DNA of 32,393 nt from a virus: positions 1-32,393 of the IMG/VR virus record IMGVR_UViG_3300010297_000038; one strand, given 5' to 3'. The position numbers were made by a program, and so were the translations under genes. Positions 1 through 30,494 of this stretch are shown here, in pieces. The notes below the pieces were generated by a model that searched no databases, had not been told where the DNA came from, and saw nothing but the letters and a program-made list of their open reading frames with translations. The stretch's first letter is position 1. Every line of letters begins with the position of its first letter.

Positions 1-3000
1 CTATCACCTTTTTCACCGATAACAGTCGTTGTAACTGGCTTTACCCATAATCTTTTAATACCTAGGCCATACCAATTTAAAATAGTTAAACTTACATATC
101 TATCATCTGCAGCCGGTGTAAATTCGATAGTTCTTGTTGTATACTCACCAGGCACTGGAGCGTTTTCGAGACTAGCTGAAGGAGTGACCTTGATATACTG
201 AGTATCAGCTCCGCTGCGGAGATACTGGTGATTAAAATTTTGTATAAGAGGTGAATTTTGTGTATCGCCTAGGTATCGGTACCCGACTCTATCCTTCCCC
301 TCAGCTAGATCAGTTGTTATTGAGTATAATCTTATATAGAGCCCATCTATAGTAGGAACCGTCACGTCAGGAGACTTGTATGTGACAGTAAATCTAACTT
401 TACGGCCATCACTAACATCGACAGCCGGGTATACCATACCTGTCGTGTAATCAGTTACCCCCTGTAACTGTAAAACATTTTCATCCTCAAGGTATGTAAT
501 AGAAGACGGGCCCTCATCATTACCGTAACCGTATACTGCTTCACAACCATTAGGCCGGCCGGCTGATCCATCTTTACCTACAATTTTTACCCAAGTGTAA
601 TCGTCGTGATCAGTAGAATCAAGTTCGTTACTGTCTGTATACGTACCTAAAAACGAACGATCCCCTGGGTTATTATCTGTAGTAAAGTTAGTACCGAATT
701 CATCATCTGCATACGCAATATGCAGATAGGAGCTGATACCATCTGCCCCATCCGCTCCTCGTATGCCTGCCGGTCCTTGTATTGAACCGGCATCCACGAA
801 CTCAGTCCCATTATATACATATAGACTACCGGATATCAGATATGAATCACCTTGTATGTTATTTGACGTGGGTAGATCATCTACTGAATCCAGACTATCT
901 TTAATGTTAATAGATGTACCATCACGACCAAGCATCTTTATAAATACTAGATCCTCAATAACATTATCAGTTAAACTGCTAATATTGGTAATAGAGGAAT
1001 TATAGAATGATACAAAAACAAAATCAGAATTAGTTTGTGTCAGCGAACACTGTGCTACCGTAGTTGGGTTCTCAACTGTTGAGTAAATCGGTGTAACAGC
1101 ACCGTCTTGCGATGTTGCTCTCGGTGATGACCAATCATCACTTAATATTATATCAGAGCTTGAATCTTGAGTACTAATTGCTGTTGCAAATGTCTGCCAT
1201 AGCACTCTATCTGTAGTATCTTTACTAGGTAGTTCATAGGTCCAACCGTTTGTTGTTCCTTCATCTCCATTTGATAGATACGTGCCAAAAGTCCAGGTGT
1301 CGGATACAAAATCATACGTACCACTTAATGTAGGTAAATCTAACTCTCCTGCGATAGGAGTAAAATCGGTTCTCTTGAAAAGAGTAAGCGGTCTACCTAT
1401 ACCACCGGACTCGCCTCGCAAGCCTCGTTCACCGACAATACCCCACTTAGCAGGTGCACTCCATTCGTTAGCTTCTATGGTATCAGTATCATTTATATTT
1501 GATACGTTACCGCTAGCAGTTGCATGTACAATATATACTTGCTGATCACCGTCAGGTATCGTATCGCTCCAGCCATTTGATAGTACATCGGTAATTTGCC
1601 CAGCCGTCTCGCCGGAGAGGGCTACAGTACATGTACCTGGATTCGTAGTAGGTAATACACTTGATCTTATATAAGCCTGTACTATATGCGATACAGTCGT
1701 TTCAGTTAAATCAAATGGGTTTTGAGAAAATATAATAGGCGACGTCCACTCTGTATCTGGTATAATATCGTAATTATCTCTCGACGATGCGGTTGCATTA
1801 ATCTGCCAGAGGTAATGATTTGAACCGTTATATGACGGCGCGGTAAGTGACCATCCTTGCTTATTTGCACTTTCTATCTCGATTAACTCACCTCTCTTAT
1901 TTGAGCCTTCATCGCCAAGGTAATATCTAAATGATCCGGTAGGTTTTTCAGGAGACGGTGTATTCGGTGATGACGTTCTCTTATATAGACTTACTACTGT
2001 AGTTGCTAGGCCAGTTAAACCTTGCCCACCGGGCTTGCGGAACGAAACCGTATCACTCCATTCATTACTAGCAATTATATCTATATAGTTATCATCAGTT
2101 TCATCGGAATCAGAAGCTAAAGCTTGTATACTATACACCCAGTCATTATCCGGTAACTCTGTTCTCCAACCAGTATCAACGTCATCGCCATTACTATTCT
2201 TTGTTAAAATTTTATGATCAGATGTAACATTTATAACCTGCCCGTTTATCTCTGTTCTAATCACATTACCGAAATTTGATGAATCTCTAGCTAAGTCAAC
2301 AGCTATATTAACTTCAGATGGCATAGTCGGTATATTGTTACCTGTTAATTGAGTATCAGAGCCATAGTATAGAGTTATACGCGTGTTTGTTACCCCATCA
2401 AACCCAGCTACACCGTCATAAGCTAGTATAGCAGGTATCGACCAGGGGTTATCAGAATCAGCATAGTCTGTACCAGTATTACCTCTCACATTAAAGTTAC
2501 GCTGACTAACATATATCTGTCCTGGGCCTGGAGGTATAGTAGAAGACCATGTCAATTCACCATTTGGGTCTGATGGCAGACCTAAGCTATTTTGACCGAA
2601 ATTATAGGACCCACCGGTAGGTATATAGCTTTCAACTTGTATATCTTCGCTACCGCTATACCGTGTATATACCTGTGCAAGATATGTAGATACAGCAACT
2701 TCACCGTCATCAGGGGCCAGGATAGGATCCCCCCATTGAATATCTGTATCATTCGGATATTGTCCGGATTCCGGGTCGTAAACTGATTCTGCTATACCTA
2801 CGGCTACGTATAAGAAGTCACGACCGTAATCTATATTACTATCTTCTAAAGTTGATTTATAAGGTTCACTCGACCAACCCGTGCCCTGTAAGTTTAGTAT
2901 TTTATCTTGAAAATTAAATTCAGCTGCAGAAAGAGATGTTACATGCGGAGCATCGCCGACAGAGCGGAGATATGCTCTTACCTGAGCTACTACGTTACCT

Positions 3001-20679: not shown

Positions 20680-21522
20680 TTATATATAGCTGCAAAAAAA
20701 GTGACAACCGGTGCTAGTTAAAATATCCTTTAATTTATCTTCGTTGTCTAAAATTAAATCACAGCTACGAAAAGACTCGATTTTCCTATCTTGTGTTTCT
20801 ATCAGTAATGCTCCTTCAGAGGTAATACCAATACCTACACCTTTAACGGGATGTATTATATTTTTACCCTTAATATAACTTACACTATCAAATGCAGTTA
20901 CAATATTATCCGAAGATTGGCATTTTAAATAGCTAGACATTAGTGATTCTATAACTTTAACGGTAATATGATTCATATCATACCTCGTACCAGATTCAAT
21001 CTTCAAGCTAGTAGCAATTTTTCTATAATCGATAGGGAAAGTATTTAGATCGGTATTAATATTTAAACCTAAACCGATAATAATATATTCGGTCATCTTC
21101 AACGAGCTATCAGTGCCGCTCCCTGTCATAGCCTCTGCTATCATTCCAGAGATTTTCTTCTGATTACAGTAAATATCATTAGGCCATTTTACTTTAAAAT
21201 CCAAATTGGGTATTGCACTGCCTAATGATCTGCAAACCTCGATGCCGTTCCATACGCTAAGAGTTTTAAAGAAGGTTATATCTGTAGATGGTAAAGCTAC
21301 AGACAGGTGCAAGTTATCAGGACATTCACTATGCCATTTCTTACCAAACCTACCTTGACCGTTAGTCATTTTTGATGCTACTACAGCAAACGGCGAGGGG
21401 ATCCCATCGTTCAATAATCGGCGCGCCTGTAGTATTACACTATCAATCGTTTCATAAAAATATATAGGGGTAGATGTAGTATTATATTTATCTAGAGATT
21501 TTTGATTAAGGTATTGCTGCAT
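20680..21522 (-). CDS. birA: Biotin--protein ligase (BirA-type, no HTH domain)
   Basis: The enzyme makes biotinyl-5'-AMP and transfers biotin to a lysine of biotin-carrier proteins such as the acetyl-CoA carboxylase subunit. Visible signatures (280-aa numbering): GQGRFGKKW (55-63, the biotinyl-AMP-binding GRGRxGRxW loop), KWPNDIY (112-118), KKISGMIAE (122-130) and IIIGLGLNIN (147-156). The C-terminal 60 residues (IIHPVKGVGIGITSEGALLI) fit the BPL C-terminal SH3-like domain. The BirA DNA-binding domain is absent, so it is probably an enzyme only. The start is ATG 21522; an in-frame TTG nine codons upstream would lie across an exact TATAAATA box. A biotin ligase is rare in phages. No carrier protein is visible here. 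The dUTPase gene follows. Confidence 0.9.
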   Translation of the reverse strand: MQQYLNQKSLDKYNTTSTPIYFYETIDSVILQARRLLNDGIPSPFAVVASKMTNGQGRFGKKWHSECPDNLHLSVALPSTDITFFKTLSVWNGIEVCRSLGSAIPNLDFKVKWPNDIYCNQKKISGMIAEAMTGSGTDSSLKMTEYIIIGLGLNINTDLNTFPIDYRKIATSLKIESGTRYDMNHITVKVIESLMSSYLKCQSSDNIVTAFDSVSYIKGKNIIHPVKGVGIGITSEGALLIETQDRKIESFRSCDLILDNEDKLKDILTSTGCHFFCSYI

Positions 21523-21527
21523 ACATT

Positions 21528-21535
21528 TATTTATA
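21528..21535 (-). promoter_or_regulatory. T4-type late promoter box, biotin ligase
   Basis: Exact TATAAATA, 5 bases before ATG 21522. It argues that the ATG, not the upstream TTG at 21549, is the start, and that the ligase is made late. Confidence 0.6.
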
Positions 21536-21575
21536 ACATGTAATTTCAACTATATATATAACATATACATTTATT

Positions 21576-21583
21576 AATAAATA
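21576..21583 (+). promoter_or_regulatory. Late promoter-like box, adhesin 1
   Basis: AATAAATA, 7 bases before the ATG at 21591. Most of it lies within the 91-bp exact repeat shared with adhesin 2. Confidence 0.5.
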
Positions 21584-21667
21584 TTTCTATATGCCGGTTG
21601 CTTATACAAATTTTGATATATCTAACGTTTACAAAGGTAGAAATAGCGTTAATAAAATTATGAAAGG
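21577..21667 (+). repeat. Exact repeat A, copy 1 (91 bp)
   Basis: Identical base for base to 24440-24530. It spans most of the promoter box, the start codon and the first 25 codons of adhesin 1. Confidence 0.95.
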
Positions 21668-23258
21668 TCATAACCATGTATGGCCTACAGCGCCTGTATT
21701 TTCATTTGATACACCACAAATCGGTGGTGAATTAAATTTTAAAGTAAGTTCTGATACAGAGTATGTAGCATGCACTGTTAATGATGCTGATGTTTATATA
21801 TTCTCTACAAATAGTACAAATAGTGATATTAAAAACACTGTAAGAGCTAACGGGGTAAATACTAGAGTAAGTGATACTAATAGAGTCGTGGATATATCAT
21901 TACCGTTATTTAAACGTATTCAAACTGCTATTACCGGTACCGGCACATCACTAGCAAGATACGGGGCCGATTTAAATAAAGGGTTCATTACAATTACAGT
22001 ATTTAACCCGCTTGATACAGTAATTAATTTTAGTATTTCAGTATCCGGTAAAGGTACGCAGACTAAATCTTGCCCAGCTTTTTCGAAAACAGCTTTTACC
22101 TTTTCGTCTCTGAGTACAGGTACATATACAGTTACCGTAAATAATTTAACAGACAATGTTGTAGAAAATACAACTGTATATGTTAATAGTAACTCCACTA
22201 GTATACCGGTACAAAGTTTGACATTAAAGTTGCTTCCTTCTGAAAAATCCGCTAGCGGTTTTACTAATAATGTCAAAATATACAGTTTAACACAGGAAGA
22301 AGCTATAAATAATTACACTAACGCGTACGGTCCTAAAGCTAGAATTTCAATAGATATAAGAATACTTGGCATCACTGGTTCTACCTCTAGCATTTATAGT
22401 TATTGGGCAGTGCAGGGTTTCTTTAAAATTATAAGCGGTGGGATCGGTTACCCACCAAATTCAGTTATAACGGTATCGATACCGAACACGTTGTATTTCA
22501 TCGATTACGGTAAAAGCAGCTTTTTTACTAGAGTTAATCTGAGGTTTTTTAAATTGTTTACCGATAGTAATGGTACAATCGTAGCCATTGCGAGTCGATA
22601 CTACGGGTCAGATACACCGGACTGGGAAGCCCCAGGAGGCCCAAATAAAGAGTTTATTGAAGCTTTTGGTGCTGATCAGACCGTCTGGAGTTCAGCTTTG
22701 AACGAAAATTCTAATAGTATGATCTTCAAAGAAGACGTAGGGTATAAAATTGTCACAAGAGATTTTCGAAGTCAGTTCAGCAGCAAAGATTTAAGTAACG
22801 TGATACCACACGATTATTTCTACACTGCGATAGTTGCACAGGAGTTGTTTTTATGGTATGCATCTGGTTTGCGCGGTCAAACACTAGCAAGTATATATAA
22901 CAGTGAACTCTCTAAAATAAATAATTTTGTTGTTCAAGGAGACGGCGGCCAAGGAATTGATCTAGTAACGAGTATTGATACAAATGTAGATATTTTTGGA
23001 AGTCAAGGTACATGGTTTAGTAACTTATTATTTGATAATAATGATAGTGAAGGTAATATACAAGCCGTAGAATTAGGTACTACCGATGTTAGTAATATTA
23101 GGAGTCAATCTCAGAGAGAACTTAAAGTTATACAATCTAACTATATTAATACAACAACTAATAAAAACGGTAATAGCAATGTCGAAATAATTAATACTCC
23201 TAATTTTGAAGCTATGCACGGGGCGGGGGTAACTTACGAATATATAAACGTGCCATGA
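21591..23258 (+). CDS. Receptor-binding-type tail protein, adhesin 1 (555 aa to TGA; 643 aa if read through)
   Basis: The N-terminus, MPVAYTNFDISNVYKGRNSV, continues to IMKGHNHVWP; the K-I-x-x-G-x-x-x-V/A-W-P pattern resembles virion-attachment segments of phage tail proteins. Residues 36-240 are beta-rich and paralogous to adhesin 2, including an Ig-like stretch (GTQTKSCPAFSKTAF, STGTYTVTVNNLTDN). Residues about 245-490 are unique. Residues from about 507 (QRELKVIQSNYINTTTNK) match adhesin 2 again. The frame ends at TGA 23256-23258 but stays open in the same frame for 87 more codons with a GC-rich repeat domain. It probably contacts the host surface; the receptor is unknown. The downstream oxygenase is convergent. 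Confidence 0.8.
   Translation: MPVAYTNFDISNVYKGRNSVNKIMKGHNHVWPTAPVFSFDTPQIGGELNFKVSSDTEYVACTVNDADVYIFSTNSTNSDIKNTVRANGVNTRVSDTNRVVDISLPLFKRIQTAITGTGTSLARYGADLNKGFITITVFNPLDTVINFSISVSGKGTQTKSCPAFSKTAFTFSSLSTGTYTVTVNNLTDNVVENTTVYVNSNSTSIPVQSLTLKLLPSEKSASGFTNNVKIYSLTQEEAINNYTNAYGPKARISIDIRILGITGSTSSIYSYWAVQGFFKIISGGIGYPPNSVITVSIPNTLYFIDYGKSSFFTRVNLRFFKLFTDSNGTIVAIASRYYGSDTPDWEAPGGPNKEFIEAFGADQTVWSSALNENSNSMIFKEDVGYKIVTRDFRSQFSSKDLSNVIPHDYFYTAIVAQELFLWYASGLRGQTLASIYNSELSKINNFVVQGDGGQGIDLVTSIDTNVDIFGSQGTWFSNLLFDNNDSEGNIQAVELGTTDVSNIRSQSQRELKVIQSNYINTTTNKNGNSNVEIINTPNFEAMHGAGVTYEYINVP
23108..23216 (+). repeat. Repeat B, copy 1 (109 bp)
   Basis: Bases 23108-23183 are identical to 25875-25950. The match continues with two substitutions to 23216. 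It codes for the shared C-terminal segment of the two adhesins. Confidence 0.93.
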
Positions 23259-23522
23259 CCGGCTGGCTTTGATCCTGCCGCATATTTGAGCCGCTACAGC
23301 GACCTAACCGCAGCCTTCGGCACGGATTACAATGCAGCGTGGGAGCATTATTTAAATTACGGCGTATGGGAAGGTCGCACGCACAGTGACAGCTTTTCCA
23401 TCGACGATTATCTTTTGCTAAATCCCGATCTGGCTGCGGCCTTCGGCGATGATAAAAAAGCAGCACTCCTTCATTGGTTTAATTATGGGATCAATGAAGG
23501 ACGGCAGACCATTAAGCTTTAG
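23259..23522 (+). pseudogene. In-frame GC-rich repeat domain after the adhesin 1 TGA (readthrough extension or decayed C-terminus)
   Basis: Directly after the TGA and in the same frame are 87 codons ending in TAG. They encode two copies of a roughly 43-residue motif: FDPAAYLSRYSDLTAAFG followed by HYLNYGVWEGR, and FSIDDYLLLNPDLAAAFG followed by HWFNYGINEGR. This YL..NPDLAAAFG...HY.NYG..EGR repeat recurs in secreted and virion-associated bacterial and phage proteins, from memory. By my count 90 of 180 bases in 23281-23460 are G or C, against 19 of 60 at 23041-23100, so the segment was probably acquired. It has no ATG, promoter box or Shine-Dalgarno site of its own, so an independent gene is unlikely. 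It is either made by TGA readthrough (the TGA is followed by C, a leaky context) or is a severed domain. Confidence 0.7.
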
Positions 23523-23546: not shown

Positions 23547-24245
23547 TTAGAGGAATTCTCTCGGTCTATTTTTCCACGGTAATATTACAAAAGATCTTCT
23601 GATTCCAAAGAAACTGAGAACCTCGTGTGGCATACCACCAGAAAATACAATCAATCTATTTTCTTTGGCCTCAATTTTATCTATTACATTTTTTTGATCA
23701 AAATCATAAACAACTAATTCTCCACCTTCTAAACCCTCTTCTACCTTATCGTAAAAAACATAGGTTATTTCCGGGCACACTATTTCACCAGTTAACATTT
23801 CTAAACCGCCGTCATAATCAACATGTATTGGAACGGCTATATTTCTATCTCCTCCAACGTTTATTGAGTCATAACTCCACCATTCTACACCTTTGAGATC
23901 AACAGGGTTTTTTGATATTATTTTTTGCAGTCCCTTTGGAAAATGTTGTTTTGTTAACCATTGACCAAAATGCGCCGTGTCGTGCATTTTAATCCCTCTT
24001 TTATTTAATATTTCTCGTATTGGGGTTTTTCTGACATGATACTTTAAATCCTCTCTTTCTCTTCGTTCTCCACTCTTCAAACATTTTGCTCTTGGCCTTA
24101 AATGATTTAACGAATCTTCTATAATATTACATTTTAATGCCCTATCAGTGTGTGGACAAATGATTATACCAGCAAATGCATTCATATCTGATGCAAAACT
24201 TTCTAACTCTTCTGAAGTTAATACATTATCAAATACTTTAATCAT
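23547..24245 (-). CDS. 2-oxoglutarate/Fe(II)-dependent oxygenase (prolyl-4-hydroxylase-like fold)
   Basis: The 232-aa protein starts like small 2OG oxygenases (MIKVFDNVLTSEELESF). The metal ligands are visible as H141-V-D143 in VPIHVDYDG and H207 in GGMPHEVL. Arg216/Arg217 in GIRRSFVILPW are the likely 2-oxoglutarate anchor, and EGGELVVYD (173-181) is the usual GGEL strand. The enzyme couples 2-oxoglutarate decarboxylation to hydroxylation of a protein or small molecule. T4-like phages often carry such genes, usually with unknown substrates. It lies on the opposite strand between two paralogous adhesins, behind two micro-ORFs linked by ATGA overlaps. Modification of a virion protein is possible but unproven. 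Confidence 0.88.
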   Translation of the reverse strand: MIKVFDNVLTSEELESFASDMNAFAGIIICPHTDRALKCNIIEDSLNHLRPRAKCLKSGERREREDLKYHVRKTPIREILNKRGIKMHDTAHFGQWLTKQHFPKGLQKIISKNPVDLKGVEWWSYDSINVGGDRNIAVPIHVDYDGGLEMLTGEIVCPEITYVFYDKVEEGLEGGELVVYDFDQKNVIDKIEAKENRLIVFSGGMPHEVLSFFGIRRSFVILPWKNRPREFL

Positions 24246-24438: not shown

Positions 24439-24446
24439 GATAAATA
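24439..24446 (+). promoter_or_regulatory. Late promoter-like box, adhesin 2
   Basis: GATAAATA, 7 bases before the ATG at 24454. The preceding GTAGTTTTTAATTATAT also occurs, with one extra T, before the probable terminase gene at 27191. Confidence 0.45.
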
Positions 24447-24530
24447 TTTCTATATGCCGGTTGCTTATACAAATTTTGATATATCTAACGTTTACAAAGG
24501 TAGAAATAGCGTTAATAAAATTATGAAAGG
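24440..24530 (+). repeat. Exact repeat A, copy 2 (91 bp)
   Basis: Identical to 21577-21667, covering the 5' end of adhesin 2. Confidence 0.95.
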
Positions 24531-26517
24531 AAATGTACTTGCGTGGCCACCAACACCAGCATTTTCATTTAATACATATCGATCCGGTGGTGATTTAAAC
24601 TTTACTGTAACGTCGGATACTGATTATATAGCATGTACAGTTAATGATTCTGAGGTATTTATATATAAAACATCAGATATTACTGCTAAAGCTATCCGTG
24701 TTCTTGATACTATACATATACTTGAATCGACAAGTAAAGTCATCGATATATCATTACCATTATATGCTCGTAAGTATGTTAGAATTAGTGGGAATGGTAC
24801 TCGGTTAGCACGGTATGGGATTGATTACAATAACGGTAAGGTAGTTGTTGAAGTAATTAACCCGTATGGTTCTGCTATAAACTATACAGTAACTTTAACT
24901 GGTAAGGGTAGTATAACTAAGAATTGTCCAGTTGGTACTACAACAAGTTTTATTTTTACCTCTGTACCTCAAGGTACGCGTACGGTAACTTTAACAGACC
25001 TGGCTGACAGTAGTACTACTAGTACGCAAGTTGTTATTAATACAAATTCTTCACCGATCGGTATACAAAACCTTACGCTTGGTATAAGTAATACGGCTGA
25101 TGGTAGTGTTGGTACTATATTAAACGATATTAAAGTATACAGTATAACAGAAGATGAAGCTTTAAATAGTTTATATGGAACAACACCGGTTATATCTGTA
25201 GAACAAATTTACGATGGGGCGGTTGATGATTGGTTATATGAGGAAAGGTATTATCGGATTATATTTAGAATCATATCCGGTGGATCCGGACTACCACCTA
25301 ATTCAGAAATACAAGTTAGATGGGATGACGCCGTCACTATTAAAAAGGGGAATCCCTGGACCTATGACCTGGTGTATTCCACATACACCGCTGGTGCTCA
25401 CGTAGTAACATTAATAACGGATAGCGTTGGTAAAGTAACCCAACTAGGCCCCGGGACTCTTATGGACGTTGACCCGGTCGTGCTAGCACTCATGCCCAGC
25501 GGGTGGTCTTGGGGTTTTGCTGGTGACGGTCATCAGTTTCAGTCCGCGAGTTGGTCTCTCGATGCATCCGGTGAAAAAATCACAATGGCCTTTTTTGAAA
25601 GGTCGGACTTGAACGATCAGTATTATGGAAGACCGCAAGATGATGCCGAACCTGGGGCAACGTTTGTATCGAATTGGGTAGATGGTGGAGAGGCAGGAAT
25701 TAACTTTATAGGTACAGATAAACCGATATCTCTAGTGGAGCATACGACGTTTGACAGCCTTAATACGGTTGCTGGTACTTGGTCCGAAAACTTACTATTT
25801 GATAATAGAGACCTAGTAGGTAATTTACAATCTGTAGAACTTAAAGATATTAATATCGAAAACATAACATCTACATCTCAGAGAGAACTTAAAGTTATAC
25901 AATCTAACTATATTAATACAACAACTAATAAAAACGGTAATAGCAATGTCAAAATAACTAATACTCCTAATTTTGAAGCTATGTACGGAAATGGAGCAAC
26001 GCTTGAATACTTAAATGATCCTACTTTTCAAATTAAGTTTACTCCGACAAAAACGTGGTTTTGGGCTTCGAGTTTTTTCTCGAGCTATAGTAATACACCT
26101 ATAACAACAGGTGTTAATACAAGCTACAATGCTTTCCTCCTGTTTTTTATCGAACGAGAAATAACTGCTGACATACTACGACCTGGTTATGGCTACGAAC
26201 CTAACATGACATTTAATGATAATTACCTCGTACCCGTTAATATTGACCCGTCTATTGTCCCTATCATAATTGAATATCAATATGATATAAAGACTGCCCT
26301 GTATAATAAACACTTTAACGTTAAAGTAGAAACTAATAATGCAGGTAGTATTACAGCAGCTAGAGTGCAGCCAGTACCGGTTGCAGGTCCTTCGTGGGCT
26401 AGTGGTCGAGCCGTAGGTATAGGTCAACCAGACAAAAAATCTTATTATGGCTATGTATCTCGTTACTTATTCAATGTACCGGCGCCAGATACAACCTGGT
26501 CTCCAAGACCTATATAG
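24454..26517 (+). CDS. Receptor-binding-type tail protein, adhesin 2, paralog of adhesin 1 (687 aa)
   Basis: The first 26 residues are identical to adhesin 1, then IMKGNVLAWPPTPAF. Residues to about 240 are clearly paralogous (SDTDYIACTVNDSEVFIY against SDTEYVACTVNDADVYIF; GKGSITKNCPVGTTTSF against GKGTQTKSCPAFSKTAF). The core, about residues 250-470, is unrelated to adhesin 1 apart from SGGSGLPPNSEI, which matches SGGIGYPPNSVI. A GC-rich patch lies within it. The shared QRELKVIQSNYINTTTNK segment begins at about residue 477. The C-terminus then differs: about 175 residues starting FQIKFTPTKTWFWASSF, where adhesin 1 has the TGA and GC-rich repeats. The layout is constant attachment end, variable core, constant segment and exchangeable tip. 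Confidence 0.8.
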   Translation: MPVAYTNFDISNVYKGRNSVNKIMKGNVLAWPPTPAFSFNTYRSGGDLNFTVTSDTDYIACTVNDSEVFIYKTSDITAKAIRVLDTIHILESTSKVIDISLPLYARKYVRISGNGTRLARYGIDYNNGKVVVEVINPYGSAINYTVTLTGKGSITKNCPVGTTTSFIFTSVPQGTRTVTLTDLADSSTTSTQVVINTNSSPIGIQNLTLGISNTADGSVGTILNDIKVYSITEDEALNSLYGTTPVISVEQIYDGAVDDWLYEERYYRIIFRIISGGSGLPPNSEIQVRWDDAVTIKKGNPWTYDLVYSTYTAGAHVVTLITDSVGKVTQLGPGTLMDVDPVVLALMPSGWSWGFAGDGHQFQSASWSLDASGEKITMAFFERSDLNDQYYGRPQDDAEPGATFVSNWVDGGEAGINFIGTDKPISLVEHTTFDSLNTVAGTWSENLLFDNRDLVGNLQSVELKDINIENITSTSQRELKVIQSNYINTTTNKNGNSNVKITNTPNFEAMYGNGATLEYLNDPTFQIKFTPTKTWFWASSFFSSYSNTPITTGVNTSYNAFLLFFIEREITADILRPGYGYEPNMTFNDNYLVPVNIDPSIVPIIIEYQYDIKTALYNKHFNVKVETNNAGSITAARVQPVPVAGPSWASGRAVGIGQPDKKSYYGYVSRYLFNVPAPDTTWSPRPI
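25875..25983 (+). repeat. Repeat B, copy 2 (109 bp)
   Basis: Matches 23108-23216 exactly over the first 76 bases and with two substitutions over the next 33. Confidence 0.93.
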
Positions 26518-27646: not shown

Positions 27647-28573
27647 TTATACGATCACCGTATCTACTGTAACTATAGGCGTACTAATGGTCGTTTCACC
27701 CGTACTCTGAGTAACGGTAAGAGTATTTGGCGCAGATTTATCAAGCTTATTCTTTAATATATCAATTGCTACTTCTGTACCTTCAACATTAGCTTTGTAA
27801 GCCAGTAACAAAGCCTTCCGAGACGGGTCCTGATCCCTGTAGTTAACCTGCTTAAAGAAGTTAATAAAATCCGCCATATTACCAATTACATTTTTTAGCT
27901 GACTCTTAATTGTATCAGAATAGTCGTAAACTCTATTGATATATAGATTATCAGTAACAAGGTTCTCACCGTGAGATGTTAAAGCTGTCTGCGTATCAAC
28001 ACTACCCTGCAATCCTTTAATATTCGTCTTCAGTATTGCATCGGTTAATATGCCTAGATTTACACTAGTAGTTAATTCATTCCGCGATACCTTATTATAT
28101 AATGATGCTGCTATATTGGTAGGATATGCAAATAGAGTGTTATTGATATCAAAATAAGGGGATGTATTAGAATCCACTATACTTGTTGTATCTACTATAT
28201 TACCTGTATCATCACTATAATTAGTAAAATATATATTACTTGCGGAGAAAGATTGTGTTATTAAAGTCTTAAGATCTGCAGTTAAGCTTTGAAATTTTTC
28301 AATGTAAAATAATTTAAAAATATTATCAAATGAGTATGTAGTACTATCAACAGTTACCTTAAAATCATTTTCATTTAAGGCTTTGTATAATTTAGCTGAG
28401 CTATTAATTACATTATTGTCAATCTTACTTTTCTCAAAGTCAATAGCAACGCTTAGCTCTCCTGTATATGTACTAAACGAGCTCATTAAATTAGTAGCAG
28501 TCTTGTAGAACTCGATGCTTGGTTCCTGTACAATACTTACATAATCTGGTAGTAGTGTTGTTTTATTACTCAT
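27647..28573 (-). CDS. Hypothetical tail/baseplate-operon protein, 308 aa
   Basis: Not recognised. Long predicted helices (PSIEFYKTATNLMSSFSTYT, QSLTADLKTLITQSFSAS, DTIKSQLKNVIGNMADFINF) surround a short strand region with VTVDSTTYSFDNIF. The C-terminus is a beta-rich, Thr-rich tail (TLTVTQSTGETTISTPIVTV). It begins with an ATGA overlap on the hub-like gene and has a clear AAGGAG site, so it is co-expressed with the hub, wedge and tube-cap genes. A hub-associated or tail-assembly role is inferred from position only. Confidence 0.65.
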   Translation of the reverse strand: MSNKTTLLPDYVSIVQEPSIEFYKTATNLMSSFSTYTGELSVAIDFEKSKIDNNVINSSAKLYKALNENDFKVTVDSTTYSFDNIFKLFYIEKFQSLTADLKTLITQSFSASNIYFTNYSDDTGNIVDTTSIVDSNTSPYFDINNTLFAYPTNIAASLYNKVSRNELTTSVNLGILTDAILKTNIKGLQGSVDTQTALTSHGENLVTDNLYINRVYDYSDTIKSQLKNVIGNMADFINFFKQVNYRDQDPSRKALLLAYKANVEGTEVAIDILKNKLDKSAPNTLTVTQSTGETTISTPIVTVDTVIV

Positions 28574-30135
28574 ACTAAACTCTCCTTATATTTTGGATTA
28601 TCGAAGTGATAGGTTTTAATTGCTATTAAATTATTAAGATATGTTGTATCGTCAATAAAAAGATGATGTACATCAATTATAAAATATATTCCAAGCATTT
28701 TATTATCAAACGGGTTATCGATATAATCACCAGCTCTATCTATACTAAAAAATCTACCGGATTTACGCTGCAACTGACCTTTAACAGTTATTTCAATACC
28801 CATATTCGTTATTAGAGCATTCTTTAATAGCCTGTTAATCCCGTATGATTTACGAATCTCTGGATTATCACCGTACTCCGAGAATATATTCTCATAGGTT
28901 AAGTTATCTCGCTGCATTCCATTAATAATAAAATTCGGATACGGTGCTCTGTCCTTACCCTTCATCGTAGATACATAATTATCAGCAAAAACCTCTTTAG
29001 CTGTCTCGATATTAGCATCTTGCATATTAATATTAAATTCTTTTTTATTAAAATCGTAAGAATGAGTAATATATGTCTTAATTTTTTCTCTACGAATTCG
29101 CGAAGCTGTATTAAAAAATTTAAAATCTAGAATTTCACTTTTTTCACCGAACTCTAACGCATTATCAGGTTTTTTTTGTTCTTTTTCAATAATACTATTT
29201 GACTCACGACTAGATCCTGTAATGGTAAAATTTTCTAAAAATCTAGCACCTGTTTTACCTGATTCAGGGTTATAAGCTGCTTTAAATATATCAAAAGCTC
29301 CTTGTAAAGTATATTCACCGGTAAAATTTTCTTTCTTGAATATACTAAAGTCATTTTTTGTATCGCTACTGACATGTCGTTGCAATATATATAGCAAATC
29401 ATCATATAAAGTATTATCAGCTGGTGAAGAATAAAATATTCTTGATGAACCATCCTCAAAAAATGGTGTTATCTCATCTCCCGTATCAACATCTACATTA
29501 GTTTTTATGGCTAACTTATCTGATAAACCACTTGTAATAATACTTTTTATACATTTACCGGTAGGCACCTCTCTATTCTTATTACTTAATTGAGTCATTA
29601 TACCTGTGTCATCATCTATGACATTAGCACTACTAAAGAAACTTTTTTTCTCCTTTAAAATTTCTAGATCGTAATCTACAATTGTATATTTTTTAGCGCT
29701 TTTACCGTTATATTGTAATGACTCTTCATCCTCTAAACAGAATATATACTTTAGAGCGAATAATTTATTATAATCATCGTTACCTGTATTATAATCTTGC
29801 TTATTACCGTCAATAGGTAGTATCTCAATTTTTAATAAATCTCTACCATCGCCTCTTACAGTATAACCTTTCTGCTTACTTTTATCGGTAAATTCAATAT
29901 CATCCGGTGCTTGTACAAATCTTTCTAACGCGTCGTCTGTATTATCTAATATGATTTCACCTTTTAACCACGGATCAAAAATATTATCGAATAAACTTAA
30001 TTCTAAAACTGTACTCTTCGTTAACGTTATTAAGTCACCGTCGGGGTTAAAGAGAGTTGCTTTAAATATATATTTCTCATTATCGATAATATAACTAAAT
30101 CTCTCATCATATACTGTATCGTTAGTATACCTCAT
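28570..30135 (-). CDS. Baseplate hub-like protein, 521 aa
   Basis: The N-terminal strands (YIIDNEKYIFKATLFNPDG, SLFDNIFDPWLKGEIILDN) fit the first barrel of gp27-type hub proteins, which typically begin with a domain describing small conjugate displacements from a tube-like fold. The middle has DDLLYILQRHVSSD and GEYTLQGAFDIFKAAYNPES, and near the end GIEITVKGQLQRKSGRFFSI followed by DPFD-like loops, also common in hub proteins. The gp5-type lysozyme domain is not present. Both ends overlap neighbours by ATGA (TGA stop at 28570-28572; start within the gp53-like stop). The family call is by eye and by context. Confidence 0.55.
   Translation of the reverse strand: MRYTNDTVYDERFSYIIDNEKYIFKATLFNPDGDLITLTKSTVLELSLFDNIFDPWLKGEIILDNTDDALERFVQAPDDIEFTDKSKQKGYTVRGDGRDLLKIEILPIDGNKQDYNTGNDDYNKLFALKYIFCLEDEESLQYNGKSAKKYTIVDYDLEILKEKKSFFSSANVIDDDTGIMTQLSNKNREVPTGKCIKSIITSGLSDKLAIKTNVDVDTGDEITPFFEDGSSRIFYSSPADNTLYDDLLYILQRHVSSDTKNDFSIFKKENFTGEYTLQGAFDIFKAAYNPESGKTGARFLENFTITGSSRESNSIIEKEQKKPDNALEFGEKSEILDFKFFNTASRIRREKIKTYITHSYDFNKKEFNINMQDANIETAKEVFADNYVSTMKGKDRAPYPNFIINGMQRDNLTYENIFSEYGDNPEIRKSYGINRLLKNALITNMGIEITVKGQLQRKSGRFFSIDRAGDYIDNPFDNKMLGIYFIIDVHHLFIDDTTYLNNLIAIKTYHFDNPKYKESLV
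28582..28587 (-). promoter_or_regulatory. Shine-Dalgarno site for the 308-aa gene
   Basis: AAGGAG with 8 bases to the ATG at 28573, inside the end of the hub-like gene. Confidence 0.6.
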
Positions 30136-30494
30136 TGTAATTGATCTTTAATGCTCTGTAATACTACCTTAAGAAACGACTTCTTTATAAAGCGTATTTT
30201 TACCCCTGATTCAATCTTACCTGGGTTTTTAATATCATTGACAATCATTATTAACCACCAAAGATACGTTGTACCGTAAATTCTATAGCTCAAAGTAGTT
30301 AACGGGAATGCCGAGCTATACTTAACGTAGTCAAATATACCTTCATTTATATCATCAGGTAACTTTAGCTTCCTCAATATATTATAAGAGAAGAATTTTT
30401 TTTCACCGCGTTCATGAACCTTAAAAATATTTTCATATCTGTATAGCTCTAAATCTGGTAATACATCTATATCGTTTTGATACTTACCTGTCAT
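30132..30494 (-). CDS. 53: Baseplate wedge protein, gp53-like
   Basis: The 120-aa protein carries the gp53 signature LSYRIYGTTYLWWLIMIVND followed by IKNP (about residues 68-91). It matches the pattern of T4 gp53, which reads ANAIYGNPQLYWVLLMCND at this place. gp53 clamps neighbouring wedges together around the hub during baseplate assembly. The protein is shorter than T4 gp53 (196 aa) and lacks most of the region after the signature. The C-terminus, GVKIRFIKKSFLKVVLQSIK, is short and basic. It precedes the hub-like gene with an ATGA overlap; an exact TATAAATA box is 5 bases before its ATG. Confidence 0.78.
   Translation of the reverse strand: MTGKYQNDIDVLPDLELYRYENIFKVHERGEKKFFSYNILRKLKLPDDINEGIFDYVKYSSAFPLTTLSYRIYGTTYLWWLIMIVNDIKNPGKIESGVKIRFIKKSFLKVVLQSIKDQLQ

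Follow-up and report, generated by a model that had tools for sequence, protein, structure and literature searches.

An in-frame TGA shared by two phage adhesin genes ahead of a bacterial-type helical repeat suggests low-level stop codon readthrough

The stretch of DNA analysed here (IMG/VR record IMGVR_UViG_3300010297_000038, called the window at its full 32.4 kb) is part of the genome of a T4-like myovirus and includes baseplate wedge, clamp loader and dUTPase genes; to the nearest named phages it shows only ~29% identity in the baseplate wedge and 38% in the clamp loader. The clamp loader was at least 78% identical in ~40 IMG/VR contigs, with the top contig at 94%. Two paralogous genes with 41% identity lie on the plus strand of the window, adhesin 1 (21591-23258), which runs for 555 codons from ATG 21591 to a TGA, and adhesin 2 (24454-26517), which shares the N-terminus and connector of adhesin 1 and carries a different C-terminal domain. 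The conserved connector module (SQRELKVIQ...HGAGVTYEYINVP; 23109-23255, plus strand) directly precedes the stop codon in adhesin 1, while adhesin 2 has no stop there and continues beyond the connector for 164 further sense codons into its own C-terminal domain. A T4-type late-promoter-like box (AATAAATA; 21576-21583, plus strand) is located just 5' of adhesin 1, and late-promoter-like NATAAATA boxes occur immediately 5' of both adhesins (21576 and 24439). Adhesin 1 had no family match in Pfam, PHROGs or NCBIfam searches and no match among GenBank phages, and we infer that it encodes a fibre or adhesin from the paralogy, the late-promoter-like boxes and the place of the gene among tail genes.

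The two adhesin genes also share exact direct repeats, one of 91 bp at their starts (21577-21667 and 24440-24530) and one of 76 bp in the connector, near residues 507-531 (23108-23183 and 25875-25950). Recombination between these repeats could swap adhesin bodies and tips, with loss of the intervening oxygenase-like gene. The latter, on the minus strand between adhesins 1 and 2 (23547-24245), gave a 2OG-Fe(II) oxygenase match below threshold (25.2 bits, cut-off 27). Adjoining adhesin 1 on its other side, the minus strand ORF at 20680-21549 encodes a phage protein in which a biotin/lipoate protein ligase domain was recognised (PF03099, E 1.8e-13). The TTG start listed for this ORF is probably wrong, because the ORF contains a late-promoter-like box (21535) directly before an in-frame ATG (MQQYLNQ).

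Re-reading of the frame confirmed that the TGA at 23256-23258 is the sole stop between the 555 codons of adhesin 1 and 87 further sense codons (23259-23519, plus strand), which end at a TAG (23520-23522). An earlier sequence-only reading, from which the name adhesin is taken, had described this extension as two clean copies of a 43-residue repeat without start codon, Shine-Dalgarno site or promoter box. Two copies of a YL..NPDL..AFG.....H[YW]..YG..EGR repeat were indeed present, but they are related rather than clean (18/32 identical in the aligned core) and their period is 42. In-frame ATG and GTG codons were absent as described, but a TTG occurs at codon 10 (23286). No Shine-Dalgarno-like site was found for the extension, including before this TTG, nor any promoter of its own, the nearest upstream plus strand boxes being inside adhesin 1 at 22916 and 22304. 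The contrast in composition was likewise as reported, at about half G or C in the extension (0.50) against about a third in adhesin 1 (0.35), and was more pronounced at third codon positions (GC3 0.51 versus 0.26).

The repeat is no chance resemblance: a profile built for it matched the window extension with an E value of 3.6e-33, a figure from a profile that itself includes the extension, and bacterial copies that were found independently were up to 58% identical to it. The phage extension resembles these bacterial YL..NPDL..AFG / EGR tandem repeats of secreted proteins in sequence and in the conserved repeat positions F, YL, DL, AFG, H[YW], YG and EGR. AlphaFold2 modelling of the phage copy with the bacterial alignment (37 sequences) predicted three helices per unit (mean pLDDT 92.8), while structure prediction of the whole readthrough protein reached a pLDDT of 34.7, too low to be usable. 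The domain corresponded to no family in Pfam, PHROGs or NCBIfam and to none among PDB sequences. Its relatives were found in Azospirillum and other Alphaproteobacteria, in proteins annotated with an M10 metallopeptidase C-terminal domain or as calcium-binding or beta-helix proteins, as well as in Clostridia, one myxobacterium and one cyanobacterium. In contrast to the phage copies, which follow a stop, the bacterial tandem repeats follow uninterrupted sense codons, with at least 59 of these ahead of the match at all loci surveyed (61/61), and a stop before the domain is therefore peculiar to the phage genes. Bacterial homologs together with the unameliorated, foreign composition of the window copy support the earlier suggestion that the domain was acquired from elsewhere.

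A second phage contig (IMGVR_UViG_3300020185_000123, hereafter L010), whose clamp loader is 93% identical to that of the window, was found to carry a related arrangement. The L010 adhesin (398-1825, minus strand) lies between dUTPase and clamp loader in a gene neighbourhood unlike that of the window, has a similar late-promoter-like box, gave only a weak match among GenBank phages and shares 35% identity with adhesin 1 across 451 aligned codons. Its TGA-CCG comes directly after the HGAG[IV]TY[EQ]Y connector, at the matching position, and is followed in frame by 60 codons that encode a shorter, fused version of the same type of repeat (tblastn of the fetched loci with the window extension as sole query, E 2.4e-7). 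Comparison of related genomes at the stop codon, as proposed with the sequence-only reading, thus returned TGA again, and an in-frame extension behind a single stop at a position conserved between divergent homologs is present at two loci. No third locus came to light when 2.9 million viral contigs were scanned with protein queries and a single DNA pattern, or among 50 related records examined with the profile. The protein queries of the viral contigs (extension, adhesin 1, two- and three-row adhesin alignments, connector, and connector plus domain) returned L010 or nothing, and the pattern TGACC-N7-TTYGAYCC-N7-TAYHT occurred at 15 sites, with a long frame at L010 only. The gap between dUTPase and clamp loader holds the adhesin in L010 (1-2800) and is nearly empty in the related loci L009 (9408-10915) and L011 (5335-6842), which gives the adhesin the appearance of a movable cassette among these related phages.

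The sequence-only reading had also proposed that the codons behind the stop be examined for coding constraint. The extension domains of the window and L010 showed 57% amino acid identity over 56 aligned codons, in comparison to 35% for the adhesins that precede them, and identities at the three codon positions of 0.61, 0.64 and 0.36. Differing codons encoded 20 of the 32 identical residues. The value of pN was 0.34 and that of pS 0.91, giving a pN/pS of ~0.38, which is rough as pS is near saturation. When the same number of differences was placed randomly, 13.8 identical residues were expected in comparison to the 32 observed, a number that none of 2000 trials reached. By these sequence measures, the domain is under protein-level selection behind the stop. 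GC3 of the L010 extension (0.27) is close to that of its adhesin (0.30), and this copy appears long resident because its composition has ameliorated to that of the phage, in contrast to the foreign window copy. The simplest reading of these comparisons would be that the domain has long been kept as protein behind the stop, and the presence of a stop at the same point in two divergent adhesins suggests that it, too, has been retained.

The base after the TGA is C, as the sequence-only reading had pointed out, and in bacteria UGA followed by C is documented to terminate poorly (PMC5289835). This poor-termination context is present at both loci, and the proposed leaky stop context TGA-CCG (23256-23261, plus strand) is identical in L010. 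Stop codons were counted in 907 ORFs of at least 150 codons from the window and 80 related loci, a set gathered mechanically in which some ORFs are spurious or redundant across overlapping contigs. TAA (663) was followed by TAG (132) and TGA (112), the rarest stop; TGA-C ended ten ORFs and TGACCG only two, namely adhesin 1 and the L010 adhesin. From codon -5 to codon +9 around the stop, all seven residues shared by the two phages have identical codons in comparison to 15/44 elsewhere (Fisher p 0.0015, post hoc). This identity may point to nucleotide-level constraint by a cis element near the stop, or alternatively to a recombination junction. The residue preceding the stop is not shared by the two phages (Pro and Thr), no 3' RNA structure stronger than shuffles was seen that might stimulate readthrough (z 0.84, -0.90, -0.58 and 0.00), a feature that accompanies some but not all programmed readthrough genes, and no suppressor tRNA was found in the window or 40 related loci.

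We consider it likely that these features reflect a maintained, low-level readthrough of UGA that gives a small proportion of fibres an additional C-terminal domain. The sequence-only reading had raised this possibility, and it is from sequence that we infer readthrough and its rate, the inserted residue, the presence of the longer form in virions and its role in binding. Transcription would start from the late promoter 5' of adhesin 1, and most ribosomes would terminate at UGA-C to give the 555-residue adhesin. A minority would insert a residue at UGA, probably Trp through near-cognate tRNA-Trp, and produce a 643-residue form whose C-terminus consists of a pair of three-helix repeats of bacterial type. 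In virions, plain fibres would then predominate over a small number bearing the additional domain. This domain could serve to extend, or to fine-tune, attachment to a target on the cell surface or in the extracellular space. It is possible, although we put this more tentatively, that in one lineage of tailed DNA phages a conserved UGA-CCG, with nucleotide constraint near the stop, serves to display a domain borrowed from bacterial surface proteins on a fixed, minor fraction of adhesin fibres, so that each virion has mixed tips.

The strongest rival to readthrough is a silent tip cassette, in which the stop keeps the domain off, expression follows recombination behind a sense codon and selection acts through expressed descendants. 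The exact 91- and 76-bp repeats of the two adhesins could swap tips in this way, adhesin 2 gets to its different tip through sense codons, and the location of the adhesin varies among related genomes. However, both genomes with TGA-CCG have the domain in the same frame and at the same distance, neither of which a mere off-switch needs, and the domain was not found behind a sense codon in any phage searched, and we regard this explanation as unlikely. Termination at the TGA followed by reinitiation 27 nt downstream, at codon 10, would instead release a free small repeat protein, and a candidate start is present at codon 10 in both phages (TTG in the window, ATG in L010). It would have no need of exact in-frame placement, lacks a Shine-Dalgarno-like site ahead of codon 10 and would remove the conserved start of the repeat, as the nine preceding codons encode P..FDP..Y in both phages and FDP..Y is found in bacteria, which leaves reinitiation as a poorer candidate than the cassette. 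Marginally less likely still is the view that the domain is the untranslated remains of an acquired gene, open by chance; the window copy does retain a foreign composition, but this view is at odds with the protein-level constraint and with the amelioration of the L010 copy.

An error in sequencing or assembly, or the recent truncation of a formerly full-length adhesin by a nonsense mutation, had been offered as an alternative by the sequence-only reading, and TGA commonly arises by a single-base change, while adhesin 2 has no stop at the corresponding point. This explanation is very unlikely, because the same TGA-CCG and the domain recur in a divergent adhesin from a second phage and a second assembly. 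Least likely of all is a sense TGA in phage or host (such as code 4 or 25) with the 643-residue form as sole product, since two frames open across TGA are set against 112 of 907 long ORFs ending in TGA, its use as terminator at overlapping gene junctions (28570-30135 with 30132-30494; L009 6441) and the lack of any recognised domain among the other long in-frame extensions listed behind TGA.

The readthrough favoured here has a known counterpart in the Qβ A1 minor coat protein, which arises by UGA readthrough of the coat gene at about 1 in 15 with Trp inserted (PMC8067240). In both cases a virion protein would gain a C-terminal domain on a minority of copies through the reading of UGA, but Qβ is an RNA phage and A1 a form of its coat protein, whereas the window concerns an adhesin of a tailed DNA phage with UGA-CCG, an unrelated domain and a readthrough proposed from sequence comparison. 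Coat and tail proteins of tailed phages such as T3 and Lactobacillus phage A2 acquire Ig-like C-terminal extensions by programmed frameshifting, and it may be a matter of chance whether a mobile domain of this kind inserts in frame or out of frame, selection coming afterwards (PMC5009743). These systems similarly place a mobile domain on a fraction of virion proteins through recoding, but they shift frame, whereas the window extension follows a stop without a change of frame, is predicted to be alpha-helical and is located on an adhesin. In bacterial genes, in-frame stops that are conserved, with a dN/dS below 1, are reported to be widespread (PMC7918605), and the phenomenon is therefore not foreign to bacteria.

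The recoding known from tailed DNA phages is mostly of the frameshifting kind. The open-access literature searched describes no stop-readthrough adhesin in a tailed DNA phage, which is weak evidence of novelty. If the readthrough reading is true, tailed DNA phages can show two fibre forms from a single gene, the second of which is missed by standard gene calling. The helical repeat, widespread in bacterial secreted proteins and not in Pfam, would then be a domain selected on a phage adhesin tip and hence a lead to its binding target. The sole GenBank record labelled as phage in which the repeat was found (MT836085.1, 'Bacteriophage sp.') is probably misclassified, and it resembles a bacterial surface-glycan locus with an ABC transporter, glycosyltransferases and secreted repeat proteins.
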